A stretch of DNA of 64,000 nucleotides from Marivita sp. S6314 (GTDB lineage Bacteria; Pseudomonadota; Alphaproteobacteria; Rhodobacterales; Rhodobacteraceae), in contig NZ_JALKAO010000002.1 in NCBI RefSeq assembly GCF_023015985.1, forward strand, positions 248,001 through 312,000, given 5' to 3'. The notes under the pieces were generated by a model. The model saw nothing but the letters and a program-made list of their open reading frames with translations, made no database searches and had not been told where the DNA came from. Below are positions 1 to 10,451 of this stretch, piece after piece. The stretch's first letter is position 1; every line of letters begins with the position of its first letter. The position numbers were made by a program, and so were the translations under genes.

Positions 1-1011
1 CCAGATCACCGTGGGCAGCGCGGCAAGGCACAGGATCGACACCACATGCGCCACGTCGGTCCATTCCGGCCCCAGCAAAAGCGGCACATAGATCGGCGCA
101 AGAACCGCCTGCGCCACAACCAACGGCGTGAGCATCAAGAGAGAGACACCAAGCGACTGGCGCACCGCTTCATCGCGGTTTCCGGACGCACACAGGTGCG
201 GAAAAAGGACCACGGAGAACGCCTGGGTAAACGAGGTGGCCAGACCCAGACCCGCGTTGAAGGCCATGAAGTAGATGCCCAGGCTTTCCGCCCCCAGAAG
301 CGCGCCGACAATCAGCTTGTCGGACTGCAACCGCAACACCTTGACCATCTCTGTGCCAAGCACCGCCCAGCCATAGGTGACAAAGGGTCGGATCGGGGCA
401 TGTCCAGCCGTGGCCACAGGTGTCCAGGGGCGCAGCCTGCGCATCAGGACCAGCCAGATCGGGGCCGACAGAACGCGCGGCAGCACAAGGGTCAACGGCG
501 ATGGCCAGACCAGCGCAAGCACGACGGTCAGCGCATTGGCCCCAACCACCTGCCCTCCGGCAATCGCTGCGGTCTGGCGCAGCTTGCCTTCGCGCATCGC
601 CAGCGCCGCCTGCACAAGACCGGCCGGCATGAACAGGTATTCAAGCGCCAGAAGCGCCAGCAGCGCGCCCAGCATCGGATTGCCGAAAAAGGCCAGCGCG
701 GCGGCGATCAGGCATTGCAGTACAAACAGCCCGCCACACCACGCAAAGAAGATCCGGCGCGCTGTGGCACATGTGCGCTCCAGCGCGTCATCACTGGCAG
801 AAATGATCTTCTGGCCAACGCCGTTTTCTGTCAGCGCCTTCAGGATATCCCCCGACGCCAACGCAGCAGCCGCGATGCCAATGGCCTCGGGGCTCATCGT
901 GCGGGCGACGGCGATTACCACCAACAGGCGCGATGCTTTTGCGGCAGCTTCCGACGCCGCATAGGCAATCAGCTGAGCTGTGAATTCTGAAGGTCTGGCA
1001 AAGGCGATCAT
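1..1011 (-). CDS. Oligosaccharide flippase (Wzx-like), 3' end outside the window
   Basis: A long open frame enters from the left edge and begins at an ATG at 1011, giving 337 codons without a stop. The translation is almost entirely hydrophobic helices separated by short basic loops, with the layout of the polysaccharide transporter (PST/MurJ-MATE-like) family that flips undecaprenyl-linked repeat units across the inner membrane. An early basic segment (RTMSPEAIGIAA, about residues 33-44) matches the usual start of TM helix 2 in these flippases. Its neighbours are EPS genes, which supports an EPS role. A palindromic operator candidate lies 105 bp upstream. The family call is good; the substrate is unknown and the C-terminus is not visible. 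Confidence 0.82.
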   Translation of the reverse strand, partial: MIAFARPSEFTAQLIAYAASEAAAKASRLLVVIAVARTMSPEAIGIAAAALASGDILKALTENGVGQKIISASDDALERTCATARRIFFAWCGGLFVLQCLIAAALAFFGNPMLGALLALLALEYLFMPAGLVQAALAMREGKLRQTAAIAGGQVVGANALTVVLALVWPSPLTLVLPRVLSAPIWLVLMRRLRPWTPVATAGHAPIRPFVTYGWAVLGTEMVKVLRLQSDKLIVGALLGAESLGIYFMAFNAGLGLATSFTQAFSVVLFPHLCASGNRDEAVRQSLGVSLLMLTPLVVAQAVLAPIYVPLLLGPEWTDVAHVVSILCLAALPTVIW

Positions 1012-1115
1012 GTCGGGTCCAAGCGGTGAGGTCGGTTTCGCCGCCTGTTCTATGCTCCACCGCGATCCGCGTCGCCTGCGCCTCCGGACAGTTTGGGCCC
1101 CAGTTAGGAGAGCGA

Positions 1116-1133
1116 CCTATCCCAAGGGATAGC
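1116..1133. promoter_or_regulatory. EPS palindrome, copy 1
   Basis: CCTATCC-CAAG-GGATAGC, 13 of 14 arm positions agreeing with the consensus CCTATCC-N4-GGATAGG. It sits in the 179-bp gap upstream of the flippase gene. A second, looser dyad (GTCCC...GGGA) lies near 1178-1192, resembling one beside copy 3. Confidence 0.6.
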
Positions 1134-1190
1134 AGATCAATCCGGAAAGGCGCGGCGGGTGTGCCGCCACTTTCCCATGCAGGGACGTGT

Positions 1191-3737
1191 TCAGGAATCG
1201 ATGGTCGATTTGGTACTGTCCCAAACCGCCTGCAGACGGTGAACCACGTCGCGCAGCGCGTCCCGGTCGCCGGTCTTTGCCGTCGTCTCAACAGCGATCA
1301 ACGCGTCGCGGAACGCCAGCGCGTCAAACACCGCCGCACTGCCCGCAACCTTGTGCGCCTCTGCGGCAAGCGACCCGAGGTCCGCGTCCTGCAAACGCGC
1401 GTCCAGACCATGGACAAGGGCCTCTGCCTCTTTCAGGAAGCGCGATTGCAACCGGTCATAGGCCGCGTCCCCAAGGTTCTGACGCATTACAGCCCGTTCG
1501 GACACCGGCATGGTGGTCCCAGTGCGAGGCCCGGACCGATGCGTGACCTCGGCCAGCGCCTGCCGCAGCGCGTCGATTGAAATCGGCTTGCCGACAAAGG
1601 CATCCATACCCGCCGCCCTGAACCCATCCACCGCATCGGGCAGCACGTTGGCAGACACCGCCAGGATCGGCACGTCCCGCGACGGGCCATCCCCCGCCCG
1701 AATATTGCGCGTGGCTGTTGGGCCATCCATGACCGGCATGCTGATATCCATCAGGATGGCGTCAAACCGGCGGGCCTGCGCGGCGTCTACACCCGCCTTG
1801 CCATTCTGTGCCGTTGTCACGGAATGCCCGTCCAGTTCCAGCATGTTGCAAATGACTTCGAGATTGATCTCGTTGTCTTCGACCACCAAGAGATCAAGCG
1901 CCGCCTGATCGGTCGATACATCCTGACCAGCATCGTGGTCTTCCAGCGCGGCAACCTGTTTGAACGGAAGGCGCACCCAGAAAACACTGCCCTCCCCCAG
2001 TTCGCTTTCGACCCCCAGTTCCCCGCCCATGGCATCGGCAAACCGACGCGCGATGCCAAGGCCCAGACCTGTGCCTTCGGTCTTGCGCCCGATGGATGCG
2101 TCATGGGTGTGGAAGTCGTCAAACACCCGCTCGATATCAGCCTCGGCAATCCCGACACCGGTGTCGATGATGCGGAACTCATACATAAAGGTGTGCGCCG
2201 CGACCTTCTCGGACACTTCGACTTCCAGAGTCACGCGCCCGTTTTCAGTGAATTTGATCGCATTCCCGACAAGGTTCAGCAGGATTTGCTCCAACCGCTG
2301 TTTGTCGGCAGAGACCCACGGTTTCACCGGACCAAGCCATTGCCATTCGATAACCGTTCCGCGCGATGCAGCGTGCCCGCTTTGACCGTCAACCAGATCC
2401 TGCAGCACCGTGTTCAGATCAAAAGGCTGTGCGACAATGGAAAGTTTGCCCGCCTCGAAACGCGCGATATCCAGCACGGAATCCACGTGTTTCAGCAACA
2501 CATTGCCCGAGATGCCCATGTTATGGACAAATCGGGACTGTTCCTTGGTCAGCCGCGAATTTTTGAGAAGCGACAGGTTTCCCAACAACCCGTTCAGCGG
2601 GGTGCGGATTTCGTGGCTCATCACCGTCAGAAAATCCGCCTTGGCCTTTTCGCCCGCAAGCGCCCGGTCGCGGGCCGAAATCAGTTCCTGTTCGGCCTTC
2701 ACGCGATGCGAAGTGTCCCGGATGAACCCGATGACAATCTCTGCGTCGCCGTCAAAGGCCGATTGCAGCACCAGTTCCACCGGAAAAATATCGCCATTTG
2801 CGCGCATCGCCTCAAGCTGAACCCGCCCCTTGCCCACAACATGACGGTCCCCGCCGCGCTGCATGCGCTCCATGCCCGTATTATGCGCGTCCCGCAAATG
2901 GTCCGGCACGATCAGATCCCCGATTGGCTTGCCCCGAACCTCTTCGACATCATACCCGAAAATCGACACCGCCGCGGCGTTGAACTCAATCACATGACCT
3001 TTGGAATTCACCACGATCACCGCGTCCAGCGACGCTGAAAGGATCGTATTGATCCGGTGGTTTGATTGCCGCAATTGGCTGCTGCGTTTCTGGATGATCC
3101 GGTTGATGTAAAGCAGGTAAACGCTCAGCGCGGCCAGGGCGAGGAACAAGGCGAACGTCAGAATGGCCAACCGTGCCAGCGTGTCGCTGGTTTCCAAACG
3201 GCGCGCATCGGACAGACGGGCAAAGTACGACAGGCCCGACACCGACAGCGCCCTGACATCTTCGTTCAGGGCGTCGGCCTGCTGCCAAAGGGTTTCGGCC
3301 TCAGCCGCCAAAACCGCGTCAGGCCCATCAATAAGCGGGATCGTCTGGTCAAGATACCCGGTGACCCATCCCAAAGGTTCTGCAAATGCAAGGTCTTGCC
3401 GAAGATTGGCGAACAGCTGCGATTGGCGCAGCGTGTCGATGCGGCTGTAGAACACGTCGAACTGCAAGCGCAGCGCATTCAGATCATCAGCCCGCGTTTC
3501 AGGGTCAATCCCCGCATGCGCGATATGCTCTGCCGCATTGAGAAAGGACAGGTATTCCACCTCGACCTGTGTCAACGTCCATTGCACGTTGTCCGAACTC
3601 GCTGAGCGTTGTTGTTCAAGGTCCAGCATGACCTCGCGCCCCAGAAACAGCGTCACAACAAATGTCGCAAACAGGCCAAAGCCGATGAGTCCTGCGACCC
3701 ACCGGCGTTTGCGTTTGTACCCAGAAGACTTGGCCAT
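1191..3737 (-). CDS. Hybrid sensor histidine kinase (PAS-HisKA-HATPase-REC-Hpt)
   Basis: An 848-residue membrane sensor kinase. Visible in order: TM helix at about 13-33, a periplasmic helical region to about 187, TM helix at about 188-210, a PAS domain at about 235-355, the HisKA box with the phospho-accepting His in SHEIRTPLNG (about 385), the ATPase with its N and G boxes (LVGNAIKFTE, TGLGLGIA), a receiver domain with Asp in ILMDISMPVMDG, and a C-terminal Hpt domain with EAHKVAGSAA. This is a full phosphorelay in one chain, as in BarA/ArcB-type kinases. The ATG at 3737 is chosen over an upstream in-frame start at 3812, which would overlap the preceding gene; AAGGGG lies 9 nt before it. It follows the exported protein gene by 41 bp, suggesting one operon. 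The LuxR regulator at 6949 is a plausible phosphate acceptor, by inference only. Confidence 0.9.
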   Translation of the reverse strand: MAKSSGYKRKRRWVAGLIGFGLFATFVVTLFLGREVMLDLEQQRSASSDNVQWTLTQVEVEYLSFLNAAEHIAHAGIDPETRADDLNALRLQFDVFYSRIDTLRQSQLFANLRQDLAFAEPLGWVTGYLDQTIPLIDGPDAVLAAEAETLWQQADALNEDVRALSVSGLSYFARLSDARRLETSDTLARLAILTFALFLALAALSVYLLYINRIIQKRSSQLRQSNHRINTILSASLDAVIVVNSKGHVIEFNAAAVSIFGYDVEEVRGKPIGDLIVPDHLRDAHNTGMERMQRGGDRHVVGKGRVQLEAMRANGDIFPVELVLQSAFDGDAEIVIGFIRDTSHRVKAEQELISARDRALAGEKAKADFLTVMSHEIRTPLNGLLGNLSLLKNSRLTKEQSRFVHNMGISGNVLLKHVDSVLDIARFEAGKLSIVAQPFDLNTVLQDLVDGQSGHAASRGTVIEWQWLGPVKPWVSADKQRLEQILLNLVGNAIKFTENGRVTLEVEVSEKVAAHTFMYEFRIIDTGVGIAEADIERVFDDFHTHDASIGRKTEGTGLGLGIARRFADAMGGELGVESELGEGSVFWVRLPFKQVAALEDHDAGQDVSTDQAALDLLVVEDNEINLEVICNMLELDGHSVTTAQNGKAGVDAAQARRFDAILMDISMPVMDGPTATRNIRAGDGPSRDVPILAVSANVLPDAVDGFRAAGMDAFVGKPISIDALRQALAEVTHRSGPRTGTTMPVSERAVMRQNLGDAAYDRLQSRFLKEAEALVHGLDARLQDADLGSLAAEAHKVAGSAAVFDALAFRDALIAVETTAKTGDRDALRDVVHRLQAVWDSTKSTIDS

Positions 3738-3778
3738 CGTCTGCGGCCCCTTGTTGTTCGGGTCTCCGACCCCGGACG

Positions 3779-4285
3779 CTATTCGGCGATTTCGATCCTG
3801 TCGAGTTGCCAAATGCTGCGCGAGTAGATCACCTCGGCCCGGAATGCCGGGTCGCTGTCATAGGGGTAGACGATCCAAAGCGGCCCTTTCTGGCGGCGGG
3901 ACATTGCGGCCCCGTCCATTTCGTAGGCGATCAAGGGAGCGGACTCCGTCACCGTTTCAACCGGGATCTCGACCGTGTAGTCATTGATGGCACTGGCCAG
4001 CACGGTTTTGCCATCCGCATCGACGGCCTCAAGCAAGGCCTTGAGCGGGACGCCCACAAATGTCTTTTCGCCTTCGGTCCAAATGGTGCTGGTCTGATAT
4101 GTGCCTGCGGGCATGACCTTGAGCATATCCATATCAAATACAGCCGCACCATCCTGATTGGTGACACCGACCTGCCCGGAGACCGTCAAAACGACGTCCC
4201 CCGTGGGCGGGGAGAGAGGGTCGGCCCAGACTGCGCCAACGAAAAGCGTGTAAAGGCATGCAACGAGACCAATGAATTTTCGCAT
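3779..4285 (-). CDS. Exported protein with oxidoreductase molybdopterin-binding (SUOX-like) fold
   Basis: 168 residues starting with a signal peptide (hydrophobic core LVACLYTLFVGAV, cleavage near VWA-DP). The mature part has the spacing of the small molybdopterin-binding-fold proteins common in Rhodobacteraceae: a beta-rich start, FDMDML, STIWTEG, FVGVPLKALLE, a conserved NDYTVEIP and a C-terminal KGPLWIVYPYD...RSIWQL block. I see no cysteine that could ligate molybdenum, so catalysis is doubtful and a binding or sensing role is more likely. A GGAGG precedes the ATG at 4285. Palindrome copy 2 is 77 bp upstream, and the sensor kinase follows, so this may be the periplasmic partner of that kinase. 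That partnership is inferred from position. Confidence 0.72.
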   Translation of the reverse strand: MRKFIGLVACLYTLFVGAVWADPLSPPTGDVVLTVSGQVGVTNQDGAAVFDMDMLKVMPAGTYQTSTIWTEGEKTFVGVPLKALLEAVDADGKTVLASAINDYTVEIPVETVTESAPLIAYEMDGAAMSRRQKGPLWIVYPYDSDPAFRAEVIYSRSIWQLDRIEIAE

Positions 4286-4361
4286 ATCGTCCTCCGTGAG
4301 AGTGTTGTGACCCTTATGCGCGCGGTCCGCGTTCAAGGGAATACGGGCATGAGGATAGCGA

Positions 4362-4379
4362 CCTATCCGAAAGGATAGG
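4362..4379. promoter_or_regulatory. EPS palindrome, copy 2
   Basis: A perfect dyad CCTATCC-GAAA-GGATAGG between the galU stop and the start of the exported protein/sensor kinase operon. Immediately left of it is a further half-site arrangement (GGATAGCGACCTATCC, 4353-4368), so the arm is repeated and two dimers might bind. Confidence 0.68.
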
Positions 4380-4387
4380 CCTCCGGG

Positions 4388-5275
4388 TCACGCCGCCTTT
4401 TGCAGCGGTGCCGTGCGCGCGGTGACGAAGTTCTGCAGCTCTGCGCCCAGATCTGGACGATCCAGTGCGAAGGCCACTGTCGCCTGCACGAACCCCTGTA
4501 CCGAGCCGCAATCGAACCGTTCGCCTTCGAAGGCAAACCCATTGACGCCCGTGCGCCCCAGATCGGCGGCAATCGCGTCGGTCAACTGGATCTCTCCACC
4601 CGACCCCGGCGCCAACGAGGACAGCCAGTCAAAGATGCTGGCTTCAAGGATATAGCGCCCCACGATGCCGGACCGGGACGGCGCACGCGCCGGGCTTGGT
4701 TTTTCGACTAGCCCTTTCAGCGATTGCACACGGCCAGTCTGGGACTTGATGTCAACCACACCGTAGGACGACAGTTTCTCGGTTGGCACGGCCTCGGTCG
4801 CCACCATGTGACCCCGCGACTGTTCGAATGCCGTCACCATCTGCGCCAGCGCCGGTTGGCGCGCACGGATCACGTCATCGGGCAGGATCACGGCAAAGGG
4901 TTCATCGCCCACCAGCCGCCGGGCCAGTGACACCGCATGCCCCAGACCACGCGCTTCGTCCTGGCGCACAAAGCTGTAGGACGCTTCGGGCAGCTTGGAC
5001 CCGCGCAATGCGGACAGGATATCATCTTTGCCCTTTTCTTCGAGCGTGCGTTCCAATGCGGGCAGCGCGCCAAAGTAGTTTTCAAGCGCCGATTTTCCGG
5101 GCGAAGTGACGAAGATGAATTCCTCGATCCCTGCCGCGCGCGCTTCGTCGACGGCGTATTGGATCAGGGGCCGGTCCACCAGGGGCAGCATTTCCTTTGG
5201 AACGGATTTGGTGGCGGGCAAAAAGCGGGTGCCAAGACCGGCAACAGGGAAGACGGCTTTGCGAACGGGTTTCAT
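4388..5275 (-). CDS. galU: UTP--glucose-1-phosphate uridylyltransferase
   Basis: A 295-residue nucleotidyltransferase that makes UDP-glucose, a precursor for EPS sugars. The N-terminal signature VFPVAGLGTRFLPATKS (residues 9-25) and the following VPKEMLPLVDRPLIQY are diagnostic of bacterial GalU. The DEARGLGHAV and LPDDVI motifs are in place, and the length is normal for the family. The ATG at 5275 has AAGGA 10 nt upstream. It lies 23 bp downstream of the glycosyltransferase gene in the same direction and is probably cotranscribed with it. Confidence 0.96.
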   Translation of the reverse strand: MKPVRKAVFPVAGLGTRFLPATKSVPKEMLPLVDRPLIQYAVDEARAAGIEEFIFVTSPGKSALENYFGALPALERTLEEKGKDDILSALRGSKLPEASYSFVRQDEARGLGHAVSLARRLVGDEPFAVILPDDVIRARQPALAQMVTAFEQSRGHMVATEAVPTEKLSSYGVVDIKSQTGRVQSLKGLVEKPSPARAPSRSGIVGRYILEASIFDWLSSLAPGSGGEIQLTDAIAADLGRTGVNGFAFEGERFDCGSVQGFVQATVAFALDRPDLGAELQNFVTARTAPLQKAA

Positions 5276-5298
5276 GTCAGTGTCCTTTCGAAAGGGGA

Positions 5299-6690
5299 TC
5301 AGTAAGCGCCACGGCCAGACACGACCGCGCGGAAGGTTAAAGCAATCAGGATGAGGTCGAGCAGAACCGAGCGGGACCGCACATAGGCCACGTCAAGGTC
5401 GATCATTTTGTCGAAGCCGATATTGGCCCGGCCCGAGACCTGCCACAGGCCGGTGATGCCGGGATTGGCCGCCAGCCGTTCCAGCGCGTGTTCTGGATAA
5501 GCCGCGACTTCCTCGGGCAAGGCCGGACGGGGACCGACGATCGACATCTCGCCCTTGATCACGTTCAGGATCTGCGGAAGCTCATCAAGCGACAACCGGC
5601 GCAGGATCTTGCCGACCCGGGTGATCCGCGGATCGCTTTTCGACTTGAAACATACACCTTCCCGGTCCGACGTCGCCAGCAACGCTGCACGACGTGCTTC
5701 GGCATCCATGTACATCGACCGGAATTTATAGACCGGGAACGGCTGACCGTTCTTGCCGATCCGCGTCTGCTTGAACAGGACCGGCCCGCGACTGTCGAGC
5801 TTGACCAGCGCCGCAACCGCCAGCATCGGCAGTGCGAGCACCGCGATGGCGCTGACCGAGATGGCAAGGTCCAGCGCCCGCTGTTTCACCCGCGTCCGGT
5901 CACGGGTCGCAAAGGCATGACGCGCGCTGCGTGCAAGGAACGTGACGTTGCCAATCAGGTAGCGACGCGCCATCCGGCGGGGCTCCATCGCAAGCCGCCA
6001 GCCCCATTCCATCCGGCAGGACCGGACGAATTTCGGCGCGCGGCGCACTTCGCCTGCGAGGAAATCAAACAACGCGCCCACCCCCATGACGAGACGGGAT
6101 GCGATCAGATCGCGGTGCGCATCAATCCAAAGCTCCTGGCGCGGAACGCCCATTGCCACAAGAACGATGTCGGCGCCGGAGGCATTGATATCCGCGATCA
6201 CATCAACCGTGCGTTCCGCCTCTTCAAACCCATCACGGGTTCCAACAATGCGCAGGCCGGGAATGTCCATGCACAACCGCTGGGCGGCGGCATTGGCAAC
6301 ACCGGGCTTGCCCCCCAGAAGGAACACCGACAATCCGCGCGACGCCGCGGCGCGCAACATCTGCGGGACCAGATCCGTTCCGTTGAGATTGGCGACAAGC
6401 CGCTGGCCGGTCATCTTGGCCGCCAGCTCGATCCCGATCCCGTCGGGCAGCACGTAGTCAGAGCGCGTGAGCGCGGCTGCATAGGCGCGGGACGCGGCCC
6501 GCGTGTTGGCGCAATGGGCGTTGAAGAAACTGACGGTCTTGCGCGGCGATGTCAGCATCGCGTCGATCACTGTGTTCGGCTTGGCATTCACCAAAGGCAG
6601 GCCAAGAACGCGCAGGGTTGGCAGGGCGGGTGTAACAAGATCGGCAGGGTGCGCATCTTGCAGCATCGTCTGGGTCGGTTCGAATTTCAT
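5299..6690 (-). CDS. Fusion of WecG/TagA/CpsF glycosyltransferase and WcaJ-type sugar-phosphate transferase
   Basis: 463 residues with two enzymes in one chain. Residues about 30-240 are a GT26 (WecG/TagA/CpsF) domain, with FFNAHCAN, LPDGIGIE and VAMGVPRQELWI. Residues about 270-463 are a polyprenyl-phosphate sugar-1-phosphate transferase, with a TM hairpin (LAISVSAIAVLALPMLAVAA) followed by KFRSMY, SLDELPQI, GPRPALPEE and PGITGLWQVSGR. The C-terminal enzyme would load the first sugar phosphate onto the lipid carrier and the N-terminal one would add a later sugar. The ATG at 6690 is preferred because the extra 61 residues of the longest frame are low-complexity and lie over the palindrome. 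The ribosome site is weak. Function of each half is firm; donor sugars are not known. Confidence 0.88.
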   Translation of the reverse strand: MKFEPTQTMLQDAHPADLVTPALPTLRVLGLPLVNAKPNTVIDAMLTSPRKTVSFFNAHCANTRAASRAYAAALTRSDYVLPDGIGIELAAKMTGQRLVANLNGTDLVPQMLRAAASRGLSVFLLGGKPGVANAAAQRLCMDIPGLRIVGTRDGFEEAERTVDVIADINASGADIVLVAMGVPRQELWIDAHRDLIASRLVMGVGALFDFLAGEVRRAPKFVRSCRMEWGWRLAMEPRRMARRYLIGNVTFLARSARHAFATRDRTRVKQRALDLAISVSAIAVLALPMLAVAALVKLDSRGPVLFKQTRIGKNGQPFPVYKFRSMYMDAEARRAALLATSDREGVCFKSKSDPRITRVGKILRRLSLDELPQILNVIKGEMSIVGPRPALPEEVAAYPEHALERLAANPGITGLWQVSGRANIGFDKMIDLDVAYVRSRSVLLDLILIALTFRAVVSGRGAY

Positions 6691-6841
6691 GTCGTGATAT
6701 CCAGCAGCTTGTGGTCGTTTTCTGCCAACAGGTGTGACAGCAAATACGCCATCGCGGCAGACGGGCGTCGGGACAGGTTCAGGAGCTTTCGGCTGACGAT
6801 TGTGCCAATCGGGAGGCAGACCCGGCGCGATTGGCACCGCG

Positions 6842-6859
6842 CCTATTCCAACGGATAGG
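6842..6859. promoter_or_regulatory. EPS palindrome, copy 3
   Basis: CCTATTC-CAAC-GGATAGG in the divergent region between the glycosyltransferase fusion (start 6690) and the LuxR regulator (start 6949). One arm position departs from perfect symmetry. A second dyad, GTCCC-ATTGT-GGGAC, follows at 6866-6880. The location would allow one site to control both directions, including autoregulation. Confidence 0.65.
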
Positions 6860-6948
6860 ACCGCCTGTCCCATTGTGGGACTTTCGCGTCCCGGACCAGA
6901 CCGCTAAGTATGGGCGCGTGTGGGTGGCTGGCGCATTGGAGGTGCCAA

Positions 6949-7563
6949 ATGAAAGTACTGATTGCGGATGATCACGAACTGATTCTGGACACGCTCGTGG
7001 CCTTTATCGAAACCGATGGCGGCATTGACGTGACCACCGCACCGGACTTTGCGACAGCCGAGGCCAAGATCAAAACCGACGGTCCGTTCGATCTCGTTCT
7101 GCTGGATCTCAACATGCCCGGCATGAACGGACTGGACGGGCTGCAAAAGGCCATCGCGATGGACAACGCTGCGCACGTTGCGTTGATCACCGGTGAGGCG
7201 TCGCGCATTCTGGCGGAAAAAGCGCTTGAACTGGGGGCGGCTGGCTTTGTGCCGAAAACCCTGCCGGCAAAATCGCTGGTCAATGCGATCAAGTTCATGG
7301 CGATGGGCGAACAATACCTGCCCGCCGGTTTCATGACGGCTGAAACCGCCGAAGACAAACACCCGCTGGCGCAAAAACTGACGGAACGCGAACGTCAGGT
7401 GCTCAAGGGGTTGACCGAAGGCAAGTCCAACAAAGAGATCGCGCGCGATCTGGATTTGTCCGAACCCACGATCAAGCTGCACGTCAAAACACTCTACCGC
7501 AAGGTTGGTGCAAGCAACCGTACGCAGGCCGCCTTGATCGCCCGCGAGGCGGGATTGTTCTGA
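6949..7563 (+). CDS. LuxR/NarL-type response regulator, probable EPS regulator
   Basis: 204 residues. Residues 1-120 are a receiver domain: acidic pair in ADDHE (8-9), phosphorylatable Asp in VLLDLNMPG (about 56), and Lys in FVPKTLP (about 105). Residues about 140-204 are a NarL/FixJ helix-turn-helix (LTERERQVLKGLTEGKSNKEIA ... KLHVKTLYRKVGA shows the family pattern). The ATG at 6949 has GGAGG 7 nt upstream and starts directly with the receiver domain. The gene is bracketed by two palindromes and lies in the middle of EPS genes, so it is the best candidate to bind them. The kinase at 1191-3737 may be its partner. Both points are inference from context. Confidence 0.92.
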   Translation: MKVLIADDHELILDTLVAFIETDGGIDVTTAPDFATAEAKIKTDGPFDLVLLDLNMPGMNGLDGLQKAIAMDNAAHVALITGEASRILAEKALELGAAGFVPKTLPAKSLVNAIKFMAMGEQYLPAGFMTAETAEDKHPLAQKLTERERQVLKGLTEGKSNKEIARDLDLSEPTIKLHVKTLYRKVGASNRTQAALIAREAGLF

Positions 7564-7564
7564 T

Positions 7565-7582
7565 CCTATCCGTTGGGATAGG
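7565..7582. promoter_or_regulatory. EPS palindrome, copy 4
   Basis: Perfect dyad CCTATCC-GTTG-GGATAGG starting 2 bp after the stop codon of the LuxR regulator and 93 bp before the Wzz-like gene. Read on the other strand, copy 3 has the same GTTG centre, so these two are the closest pair. Confidence 0.68.
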
Positions 7583-7674
7583 CCGTCACCCGAATGCGAT
7601 TGATCCTAACCAAGCGCGCGGATGACCACCAATAAACGGCGGCGTAAACCCCTTTCAAAGCAAGGGATTTACGC

Positions 7675-9153
7675 ATGTTTGATGCACAGACACTTCCAAA
7701 CGCCCCCCAGACCCGGTCTCGTCTGGGTTGGCTGCGCATTCATCGCACACCGCTGCGCAGGCTGGGGTTCAAACGCCTGCTGGTGGGCGGACGCCTTTCG
7801 GATCTGGGCCGCCTGCCCCGCTATCTTGCCATTTTTCTGCTCGCGGCCAGCGGGTTGTGGGCGCCCATCGTCGGCTATCTGACCACGGCCCCATTGCAAT
7901 ACACGTCTTCGGCGTCACTGATCCTTCCCGGGTCCGGCGCGTCCGCGTCTGTCAATCTAAGCGACATCGGTCAGGCATCGTCTTTTGCCAACTCCGCCTT
8001 TTCCAACGGCTCGGTCAGCCCCACCGAAACCTACAAACGGCTTCTGGGGGCGGATCGCATTTTGGATGCTGCCGCCAAATCCCTTGGGGTGGACAGAAAA
8101 TCGCTGGGCCAGCCACGGATCACCTTGGTGGACCAAACCAGCCTGATGCATATCGAGGTGAAATCCCGCAGTCCCGAGACCGCCCAAAGCTACAGTGACG
8201 CCCTTTTAACCGCGTTTTTTCAGGAAATTGATGCCCTGCGCGCTGATGAGATCGACACGCGTCAGGCCAGCGGCACAGGCGCGATCAAGGAATACACCGC
8301 ATCGGTTCAGAAAACGCGCAGCGAGATATCGGACCTGCAAGCGCGCAGCGGGCTGTTGTCTGCCGATCAATATCGCGATCAGGTGGCGGCGCATGACCAA
8401 AGGATGCAGGACTTGCGCGTCTTGCAAGCCGACGTGGCCCAGCAAGACAACAAGGTCCGCGCGCTGGAAACTGCGCTTGGACTGCCGCCGAACTCCGCAG
8501 CCGTGACCCTGAAACTTTACGCCGATGCGCAATACCTGTCCCTGCTTGAGGAGGTTGCGATCCACGCCGCTGATCTCGCGCAGGCCAAGGCCACCTATGG
8601 CGCACAACACCCGATCCGGCTCGCCGCGCACGACGCGCATGACAACAGCCAACGCGCCGCCATTGCCCGCGCGATCGAGGTGACCGGTTTGAGCGAAGAC
8701 CACGTTCGCGCGCTGGACCGCGCGCCCGAAGGCCAACGCGCCACGCTGCTAAGCGAACTGGTCCGCGAAAGCGCAACGCGCACCGGCCTGCAGCAGCAAT
8801 ATCACGCCATGTCAAAACAGGTCGCCGACGAAGACAGTCGCCTGCGCAAACTGGCCGTGATCGCAGCCGAGCTGGAAGACAAACAGCGCGATTTTGCCGT
8901 GGCCGAGGCGATCTTTGCCTCAGCCATCGCGCGCGCTGAATCGACGAAAACCGATGTCTATGCCTCTTACCCGCTTATTCAGGTGCTCGAAGACCCCTCC
9001 CGCCCCGACAGCCCCTCGTCACCGCGCCGCAAGCTGGCGATCGCCGCAGGGATCGCCGCAACGCTGATGCTGTTGATCGGCCTGACACTCGCATGGGTGC
9101 GCCAACCCATCATCTCGCGGCTGATCGCACCGGGCAAAGGTCGCTCGGAATGA
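7675..9153 (+). CDS. Wzz/GumC-like polysaccharide chain-length determinant
   Basis: 492 residues with the layout of polysaccharide co-polymerases: TM helix at about 51-70 (AIFLLAASGLWAPIVGYL), then a long periplasmic region with heptad-rich helices (about 170-430, many EIDALRAD- and SRLRKLAV-type repeats), and a second TM helix at about 455-478. The beta-rich segment after TM1 (QYTSSASLILPG) is typical of Wzz domains. There is no tyrosine kinase domain, so it is the GumC type and not full Wzc. An AAGGGA sequence lies 9 nt before the ATG. Its stop overlaps the start of the next gene (ATGA), showing tight coupling to the polymerase. Confidence 0.85.
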   Translation: MFDAQTLPNAPQTRSRLGWLRIHRTPLRRLGFKRLLVGGRLSDLGRLPRYLAIFLLAASGLWAPIVGYLTTAPLQYTSSASLILPGSGASASVNLSDIGQASSFANSAFSNGSVSPTETYKRLLGADRILDAAAKSLGVDRKSLGQPRITLVDQTSLMHIEVKSRSPETAQSYSDALLTAFFQEIDALRADEIDTRQASGTGAIKEYTASVQKTRSEISDLQARSGLLSADQYRDQVAAHDQRMQDLRVLQADVAQQDNKVRALETALGLPPNSAAVTLKLYADAQYLSLLEEVAIHAADLAQAKATYGAQHPIRLAAHDAHDNSQRAAIARAIEVTGLSEDHVRALDRAPEGQRATLLSELVRESATRTGLQQQYHAMSKQVADEDSRLRKLAVIAAELEDKQRDFAVAEAIFASAIARAESTKTDVYASYPLIQVLEDPSRPDSPSSPRRKLAIAAGIAATLMLLIGLTLAWVRQPIISRLIAPGKGRSE

Positions 9154-10451
9154 CCGTCACACCTGCCAATCCCGCCGAAAAGATCGTCTGGACGACGCTG
9201 ATCTGGACGTGGCCTCTATATGCCATCGGAGCGCTATACGTGGTGGGCCCGATCCTGGCATGGGTCCTCGCGGGGTTGGCGGCGCTGTCGCTCTATCTAG
9301 GGCCCGCCATCCGGCAGGATTTGCGCGCGACTGGGCCGGTGCCCGGATTGATCTGGCTGTGGTTTGCCGGGATGGCGGTGATGCTCATCGCGCTTTGGGC
9401 CGGTCATCTGGACTGGGGCCTGGGTGCGAAAAAGACCATAAAATCAAGCATCGGCTGGGCCAAGGGCTGGGCGCTTCTGGCGCTGTTTCCTTTAATTGGC
9501 GCGGTTCTTCCGATCCGGCGCGACGTGCTGATCCGCGCGCAATGTATCGTGGGCCTCTGGACCCTGATCATCGCGCCGCTGCTTCTGGTCGCGCCCTATG
9601 TCGGTCTGCCCGAACGCATCTTCACCTCGCCGCTCAAGGCGGTTGGCGGCCCGGGCCCCGAGTATTTTTCGGTCTACCTGTTCACCTTTGACCCGGCAAG
9701 CTGGACACCGCGCTGGCAGTTCTTTGCACCCTGGTCGCCCTTTGCAGCCCTGCTTGGCGTGATCATGGTGCTCTTTGCGCTGGAAGAAAAACACCGCGGA
9801 TGGATGGCCGCCGGGCTGGCCGCGGGGGTATTGATGATCCTTGCCTCGAAATCCCGCATGGGGCTGGTCGGGCTGGTGGCCTGCACATTGGGCCCAAGGA
9901 TGCTGCCGCTGATCGCGCGGACCTGGGCGTGGATGGCGGTGTCTGCCATCGCCTCAAGTGCCGCGATCTGGGGCACCACCGCCTTGGATCTGGGCAAAGC
10001 GGGCATTCAGGGGTTCAAATCCGCCCGCGCCGACAGCACCCGCGTGCGCGAAACGTTGCAGCGCATCGCCTATGACCGCTGGCAATCGGATGCGTTCTGG
10101 TTCGGACATGGCACCGTCAAACCCGGCGCGCATATCGTCGAATACATGCCCATCGGCAGTCATCACACGTGGTACGGGTTGTTGTTCGTGAAAGGGCTGG
10201 TTGGGTTCCTGGCGTTCCTGATCCCCTTCGTGGCGCATCTGATCGTGGTTCTGATCGACGCCGTGCATCACCCGCGCGGACGGCTGCCCCTGGGGCTGCT
10301 GATGACGATGCTTTTGCTGTCCTTTGGCGAAAACATCGAAATCGAAGCCTATCTTTTGTGGCCCGCGCTGATGATGCTGGGATGCCACCTGCGCGAAATG
10401 GCGCGTGACACGGTCATCGCGCCACCCTCAGGTGACGCGGTGCCCGCCTGA
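9150..10451 (+). CDS. O-antigen/EPS polymerase (Wzy-like) membrane protein
   Basis: 433 residues, about ten to twelve hydrophobic helices, and one large extracytoplasmic loop between about residues 285 and 340 carrying GHGTVKPG and GSHHTWYGLLFVKG. That large loop followed by a conserved H-x-x-hydrophobic segment is the layout of the Wzy_C/O-antigen ligase superfamily. The ATG at 9150 overlaps the stop of the Wzz-like gene; the longer in-frame start at 9093 would lie inside it. Polymerase versus ligase cannot be separated by sequence alone, but the EPS context favours polymerase. Confidence 0.8.
   Translation: MTVTPANPAEKIVWTTLIWTWPLYAIGALYVVGPILAWVLAGLAALSLYLGPAIRQDLRATGPVPGLIWLWFAGMAVMLIALWAGHLDWGLGAKKTIKSSIGWAKGWALLALFPLIGAVLPIRRDVLIRAQCIVGLWTLIIAPLLLVAPYVGLPERIFTSPLKAVGGPGPEYFSVYLFTFDPASWTPRWQFFAPWSPFAALLGVIMVLFALEEKHRGWMAAGLAAGVLMILASKSRMGLVGLVACTLGPRMLPLIARTWAWMAVSAIASSAAIWGTTALDLGKAGIQGFKSARADSTRVRETLQRIAYDRWQSDAFWFGHGTVKPGAHIVEYMPIGSHHTWYGLLFVKGLVGFLAFLIPFVAHLIVVLIDAVHHPRGRLPLGLLMTMLLLSFGENIEIEAYLLWPALMMLGCHLREMARDTVIAPPSGDAVPA

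Follow-up and report, generated by a model that had tools for sequence, protein, structure and literature searches.

Gene organization and palindromic sites

An 18-bp palindrome, CCTATCC-N4-GGATAGG, recurs four times in a 64,000-nucleotide stretch of Marivita sp. S6314 (contig NZ_JALKAO010000002.1, positions 248,001 to 312,000; hereafter the window), beside genes for exopolysaccharide (EPS) synthesis, a sensor operon and the gene of a NarL/ComA-type response regulator. The palindrome consists of the core CTATCC-N4-GGATAG plus an outer C and G. Its copies are very probably operators of a two-component phosphorelay of the PruR-DTB kind, which would control the EPS genes and itself.

The first operator copy (CCTATCCCAAGGGATAGC, positions 1116..1133) has one mismatch, C for G at the last base, and lies before wzx, 104 bp upstream of the start at 1011. 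The second (4362..4379) is perfect and stands before the pruR-kinase unit, separated from pruR by 76 bp and from the preceding galU stop codon by 8 bp. The third (CCTATTCCAACGGATAGG, 6842..6859), with the left arm CCTATTC, lies between the divergently oriented wecG (start 6690) and regulator (start 6949) genes; a longer wecG frame, reaching 6873, would place this copy inside an open reading frame (ORF), and the start at 6690 is preferred. The fourth (7565..7582), also perfect, starts one base after the stop codon of the regulator gene and 92 bp before wzz-wzy. A preliminary description had reported such sites at 1116, 4362, 6842 and 7565, two of them perfect and two with a single changed arm base, and nowhere else; every one was found exactly as located, and the window holds no fifth match at ≤3 mismatches.

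The whole-genome scan which that description had called for (39 contigs, 3,767,503 bases) returned just these four matches at ≤1 mismatch, all within 6.5 kb, with a single match for the reversed-pattern control. The number of copies in the window at ≤3 mismatches is by itself not striking; shuffled sequences gave a mean of 1.27 and reached four in 5 of 100 shuffles. The striking point is that each of the four falls at ≤1 mismatch and that the genome has no other such copy, all of them being clustered in 6.5 kb. At ≤2 mismatches the genome yielded ten matches and the reversed-pattern control nine, so there is no sign of additional targets at such stringency.

The flippase gene wzx (1..1011, minus strand) is cut by the window edge; its full frame (17779-19011 of L198) encodes 410 aa with a match to Polysacc_synt_3 in Pfam (2.4e-34). 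It heads a leftward row of genes named by eye, namely two GT2-like and one GT4-like glycosyltransferase genes and an inositol-monophosphatase-like gene. The minus strand further carries the genes of a DTB-type hybrid sensor kinase (1191..3737) and of a PruR-type protein (3779..4285), a galU-like gene for UTP-glucose-1-phosphate uridylyltransferase (4388..5275; TIGR01099, 312.9 bits, slightly below the cut-off of 326.8), and a gene for a WecG-type glycosyltransferase fused to a polyprenyl glycosylphosphotransferase (5299..6690; PF03808, 8.5e-61; PF02397, 8.1e-62). On the plus strand, the regulator gene (6949..7563) is followed by a gene for a wzz-type chain-length determinant (7675..9153), whose product matches no Pfam family and TIGR03007 only weakly (9.5e-13, residues 153-473, far below the cut-off), and which is present in 21 of the 21 EPS loci compared below. 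The adjoining wzy-type polymerase gene (9150..10451; start preferred by eye over 9093) is named from its position and the membrane-protein look of its product, which has no Pfam or NCBIfam family match; it is conserved beside wzz in relatives.

Response regulator and PruR-type sensor

The 204-aa product of 6949-7563 had been assigned to the NarL type, and the assignment held: it matches PF00072 (7.4e-22) and PF00196 (9.1e-21), its best PDB chain is NarL (1a04, 3.3e-22), and the phosphorylation residues of a receiver are combined with a GerE helix-turn-helix (HTH). D7, D8, D53 and K103 are kept in 78 of 78 homologues, the window protein, L157 and L162 standing outside this count. Within the genus of the window the regulator is unevenly distributed; among 16 congeners (G001-G016) only G006 exceeds 60% identity (69%), and named Ruegeria loci reach 84%, so that frequent gain or loss of the cluster is possible.

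Preceding the kinase gene is one that encodes, by prediction, a periplasmic pterin-binding protein of the PruR type. The product, with 168 aa and a match to PF00174 (3.7e-8), has the size and fold of such proteins (about 170 aa, SUOX-type fold), and phmmer aligned its residues 23-164 with the 'Pterin Binding Protein' of PDB 7KOS at 1.4e-35. A review identifies 7KOS as PruR of Agrobacterium tumefaciens and gives as hallmarks of PruR the absence of the molybdenum-ligating cysteine and a pocket with Trp160 and Tyr104 (PMC13259868). Here the sole cysteine, C10, lies near the N-terminus and the molybdenum-ligating one is missing, while Y103 and W159 align with Y85 and W141 of the 7KOS chain at a spacing of 56, as in 104/160. 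For the N-terminal secretion signal expected of PruR, what is seen is a hydrophobic start. The locus had earlier been described as containing a sensor kinase unit; the kinase is indeed there, but it had been missed that the unit starts with the PruR-type protein.

The kinase comprises a transmembrane segment, a helical periplasmic domain with W53-X7-E61, a second transmembrane segment, and PAS, HisKA, HATPase, REC and Hpt domains. Its WX7E motif reads WTLTQVEVE from residue 53, between two hydrophobic segments, and a simple search found the motif in 56 of 67 kinase homologues of the relatives' loci. In an alignment of the window kinase with 45 of 58 candidates (13 were excluded by choice, some of them lacking WX7E), every sequence has W53, and E61 is conserved to at least 90%. 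The periplasmic domain was modelled as all-helical (pLDDT 93), and a fold search with it against the PDB gave no match at E ≤0.001. The best NCBIfam family is TorS (6.9e-104, below the equivalog cut-off), as for a TorS/BaeS-like kinase. One PruR match at ≤1e-12 and one kinase match at ≤1e-60 are present in the genome. With the kinase gene directly after pruR and WX7E in the periplasmic region, the pair appears to be the PruR-DTB configuration of section 8 of the review (PMC13259868), the likeness to a DcpA-type sensor being judged by WX7E and layout.

Conservation of the sites in relatives

A scan with the regulator yielded 503 relatives, and the best 80 of 503 loci were kept, mostly from Roseobacteraceae and Paracoccaceae. 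These loci (1.49 Mb) contain 22, 27 and 39 palindromes at zero, one and two mismatches, against means of 0, 0.2 and 2.9 for 59 shuffled-arm control palindromes. In the EPS loci, 21 in all, a leave-one-out position weight matrix (score ≥10, within 200 bp upstream) placed a site before pruR in 20 of the 20 that have this gene, before wzz in 20 of 21, before wzx in 18 of 21 (weak in L137) and before the regulator in 15 of 21, where conservation is lowest among the four; the gap there is shared with wecG, for which the count is 13 of 21. Upstream of internal genes, sites were found at the kinase in 1 of 21, at galU in 0 of 14 and at wzy in 0 of 21 loci; 6 of the 21 wzy upstream regions still exceed all 50 shuffles (permuting two-base blocks, as in the divergent-gap test below), at scores below 10. 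On the whole, a placement that favours gene heads and largely spares internal genes suggests a regulon pattern, not a scattered repeat. The check in relatives that had been proposed beforehand came out in favour of the sites, with the same gene heads marked across many genera. The wzx flanks also show a second, GC-rich conserved block about 25-45 bases past the palindrome (CTcTCC.G..GCGc.Ca.GAC), and a similar one is seen by eye at wzz.

Palindromes with a four-base loop, two of which (4362 and 7565) come shortly after stop codons, might be thought to function at the RNA level, as terminator or attenuator hairpins, or to be copies of a small mobile repeat. However, a scan of positions 900-7800 marked none of the four as terminator-like, on which ground a terminator or hairpin identity was rejected, and only four near copies exist genome-wide. 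Their conservation before gene heads, hardly extending to internal genes, and the asymmetric third half-site at pruR speak against this explanation as well, which is extremely improbable.

Site architecture and direction of control

Across relatives, the conserved core is CTATCC-N4-GGATAG with the outer C and G; the sites used for this consensus were selected at ≤2 mismatches, so that only the flanks are independent of the selection. The earlier description of the palindrome stands, but it had missed a third half-site at the pruR copies. On the pruR side, 16 of 21 flanks carry, at ≤1 mismatch, a third CTATCC three bases past the 18-mer, which none of the 21 far-side flanks does; in the window it occupies 4353..4358 (minus strand), towards pruR. 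In gaps shared by pruR and the regulator it was found in 7 of 14, versus 0 of 14 on the far side. The position of this hexamer relative to the palindrome sets the half-sites ten base pairs apart. In addition, a TG step at +13/+14 occurs on the gene side at pruR (13/21; control side 2), in shared gaps (8/14; 2) and at wzx (9/16; 1), and is not clear at the regulator (4/15; 2) or wzz (3/14; 2).

Such an arrangement resembles that of ComA of Bacillus subtilis, a NarL-family regulator that binds two inverted hexamers separated by a 4-nt spacer and uses further half-sites downstream (PMC4797271). The conserved CTATCC-N4-GGATAG is a site of this type, and the co-encoded regulator is its candidate binder. 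There are differences too: the ComA hexamer is TTGCGG rather than CTATCC, its additional elements are arranged as a direct repeat spaced by 5 nt whereas here a single third hexamer follows after 4 bases, at pruR only, and ComA is a quorum-response regulator (PMC4797271).

As for the direction of control, activation is fairly likely. NarL-family regulators often activate. The alternative, a variant that differs in sign only, keeps the same regulator and sites and lets the phosphorelay shut the EPS genes, with negative autoregulation. The sign is invisible in the sequence, in which no sigma-70 promoter turned up in place; moreover, pterin-bound PruR of A. tumefaciens is described as limiting biofilm formation through DcpA (PMC13259868). 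Nevertheless, repression seems rather unlikely, as the third half-site (pruR) and the TG step, frequent at pruR and wzx, lie on the gene side, and gene-side extra half-sites resemble ComA-activated promoters as far as these are described (PMC4797271).

Association of the site with the sensor-regulator module

The four sites had first been framed as an EPS regulon. The EPS gene heads do carry them, but this framing missed that the site appears tied more basically to the sensor-regulator module. Using a matrix trained on EPS loci only and 100 shuffles per gap, a site beating all 100 shuffles was found in 24 of 33 divergent pruR/regulator gaps from loci in which homologues of wzx, wecG and wzz were not found, versus 2 of 26 for regulator homologues that lack both a divergent pruR and these three genes, the gap lengths being 158-1268 bp in the former and 300 bp in the latter. 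Among the 33 loci, L132 and L144 keep galU between, and L158 has glycosyltransferase-like ORFs further away. The presence of the site in these gaps argues that the operator belongs to the sensor-regulator module, with the EPS genes as predicted targets in part of the family.

Co-occurrence was counted in 394 genomes of the family, with sites at ≤1 mismatch, the regulator at E ≤1e-48 and lists transcribed by hand. The regulator is present in 75 of the 80 genomes with at least two sites vs 112 of the 314 others (Fisher 1e-22, a value that ignores relatedness). The proposal of the preliminary description, that the regulator binds the sites and controls the genes for flippase, kinase, glycosyltransferase and Wzz/Wzy as well as its own, is strongly supported by this figure, by the recurrence at gene heads and by the 24 of 33 gaps.

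A different transcription factor encoded elsewhere might nonetheless use the palindromes as its operators, with the NarL-type regulator as a mere neighbour or a further target, given that the place of the regulator at the sites is deduced from sequence comparison. Of the 80 genomes carrying two or more sites, five have no regulator at the threshold used: G232 (1.7e-46), G188 (4.0e-45) and G166 (4.5e-33) fall below it, and G231 and G248 have no match at 1e-20, although G248 carries an EPS-linked site. Six of the 11 sites in these five genomes were inspected, and three lie inside ORFs (L199, L200, L207), the others (L201 and the two of G248) outside. This result, the persistence of the site at the pruR/regulator gap without wzx, wecG or wzz (24/33), and a hexamer-N4-hexamer geometry that suits the regulator's own family as far as the ComA paper describes it (PMC4797271) make another factor quite unlikely.

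Other matches in the family were inspected as well. Scattered ones in G017 and G194 were considered as targets and treated as background, 6 of 10 lying inside ORFs (L245, L247, L248, L251, L252, L254) according to a simple ORF caller that can choose wrong frames. The near match CCTATCCCGACGGATCGG recurs within ORFs of several family genomes (e.g. L200, L207), inflating one-site counts. In G237, a one-mismatch site (L249:2450-2467) stands 42 bp before a small ORF (2510-3031), pilin-like by eye and possibly a non-EPS target, and a perfect site (L250:10969-10986) is flanked by a wzx-like gene and, divergently, by a lipoprotein-like ORF that looks like Wza by eye. The wecG-like match of G259 (L256:4964-5727) comes in two overlapping pieces, hence the gene looks broken or the assembly is in error.

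A class-wide search matched PruR in 31 of 190 genomes. Among 30 PruR loci (L214-L243, three from the same family, flanks of about 1.5 kb), the regulator stands beside PruR only in L215, from this family, and L217 (G524), and the palindrome occurs only in L214 (the genome studied here) and L215. The operator claim is therefore kept within the family.

Several points weigh against reading the palindromes as operators of this phosphorelay, a reading that draws on sequence comparison and in which binding and expression at the operators are predictions. A clear site is missing in 9 of the 33 divergent gaps, including that of L121, where the regulator is 75% identical and the score is 2.5. Just 75 of the 187 regulator-bearing family genomes have at least two sites, and shared ancestry of the genomes is disregarded in the co-occurrence figure. 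In G248, two sites 9 kb apart (L258:5376, 14626), one of them 407 bp before an EPS glycosylphosphotransferase, occur without a regulator match at 1e-20. Among the EPS loci, the two nearest, both from Ruegeria (L118 and L119, 84% and 82% regulator identity), have no site before wzx, and the copy-3 site scores <10 in 6 of 21. The third half-site is not general, being rare at wzx (1/16), the regulator (3/15) and wzz (0/14). No sigma-70 promoter was found in position at the sites in the 900-7800 scan and guessed -10/-35 elements near them are inconsistent, so that no promoter is claimed. On the sensor side, the simple search did not match WX7E in 11 of 67 kinase homologues, L118 included, and no FolM-type pteridine reductase exceeds the cut-off in the genome (29 SDR-like matches, best 104 of 249 bits); Vibrio cholerae is described as having PruR-DcpA pairs without PruA (PMC13259868).

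Comparison with known systems and proposed mechanism

PruR-linked sensors are widespread in Proteobacteria, and Fig. 5 of the review uses a DTB protein of Ruegeria pomeroyi, from the genus of the two nearest loci (PMC13259868). As in the PruR-DcpA and PruR-DTB class described there, pruR lies directly before a membrane sensor with a periplasmic WX7E domain, PruR lacks the molybdenum cysteine and has the pocket Trp and Tyr, and the kinase is TorS-like (PMC13259868). The described output of PruR-DcpA in A. tumefaciens is c-di-GMP through DcpA (PMC13259868), whereas the present locus encodes a NarL-type response regulator together with an 18-bp predicted operator before EPS genes. In the available text of the review, the term 'response regulator' does not appear, and no target or DNA site is named for the DTB kinase branch (PMC13259868).

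NarL of Escherichia coli is the best solved relative of the regulator (PDB 1a04, 3.3e-22). It differs in using heptamers with 7-2-7 spacing and a nitrate input. VpsT and CsgD govern polysaccharide or biofilm genes through a LuxR-type HTH, as proposed here; they respond to c-di-GMP or act unphosphorylated. The regulator here has D7, D8, D53 and K103, and CsgD matches only its residues 107-199. Each component is of a known kind. The literature, searched by title and abstract start with most subscription papers outside that search, yielded neither a response regulator nor an operator nor a target set for a PruR-DTB kinase; no item there but the review dealt with PruR-DTB, and an operator of this sequence was not apparent.

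In the proposed mechanism, the hybrid kinase (1191-3737) would receive, at its periplasmic domain, the signal of the PruR-type periplasmic protein (3779-4285), whose presumed ligand is a pterin. Phosphate would pass from the kinase His to the receiver Asp, the Hpt His and finally D53 of the regulator (6949-7563). The phosphorylated regulator would dimerise via its C-terminal HTH on the CTATCC-N4-GGATAG inverted repeat, whose half-sites are ten base pairs apart; at pruR, the third half-site may extend the regulator complex towards the gene. By this route the regulator would switch, and most likely turn on, the wzx operon, wzz-wzy, its own gene and the sensor operon, and wecG-galU is probably also under its control.

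For the family at large, the chances are about even that a pterin-responsive phosphorelay sets EPS transcription in Roseobacteraceae and Paracoccaceae, through the co-encoded NarL/ComA-type regulator and a dedicated operator with three half-sites at the sensor operon, as a transcriptional counterpart of the c-di-GMP route of PruR-DcpA. Since sensor, regulator, operator and targets lie together and are conserved in many genera, what the sensor controls can be tested on them directly, and the operator provides a search motif for the regulon across the whole family. If this proposal is true, extracytoplasmic pterins would set polysaccharide production in these bacteria.

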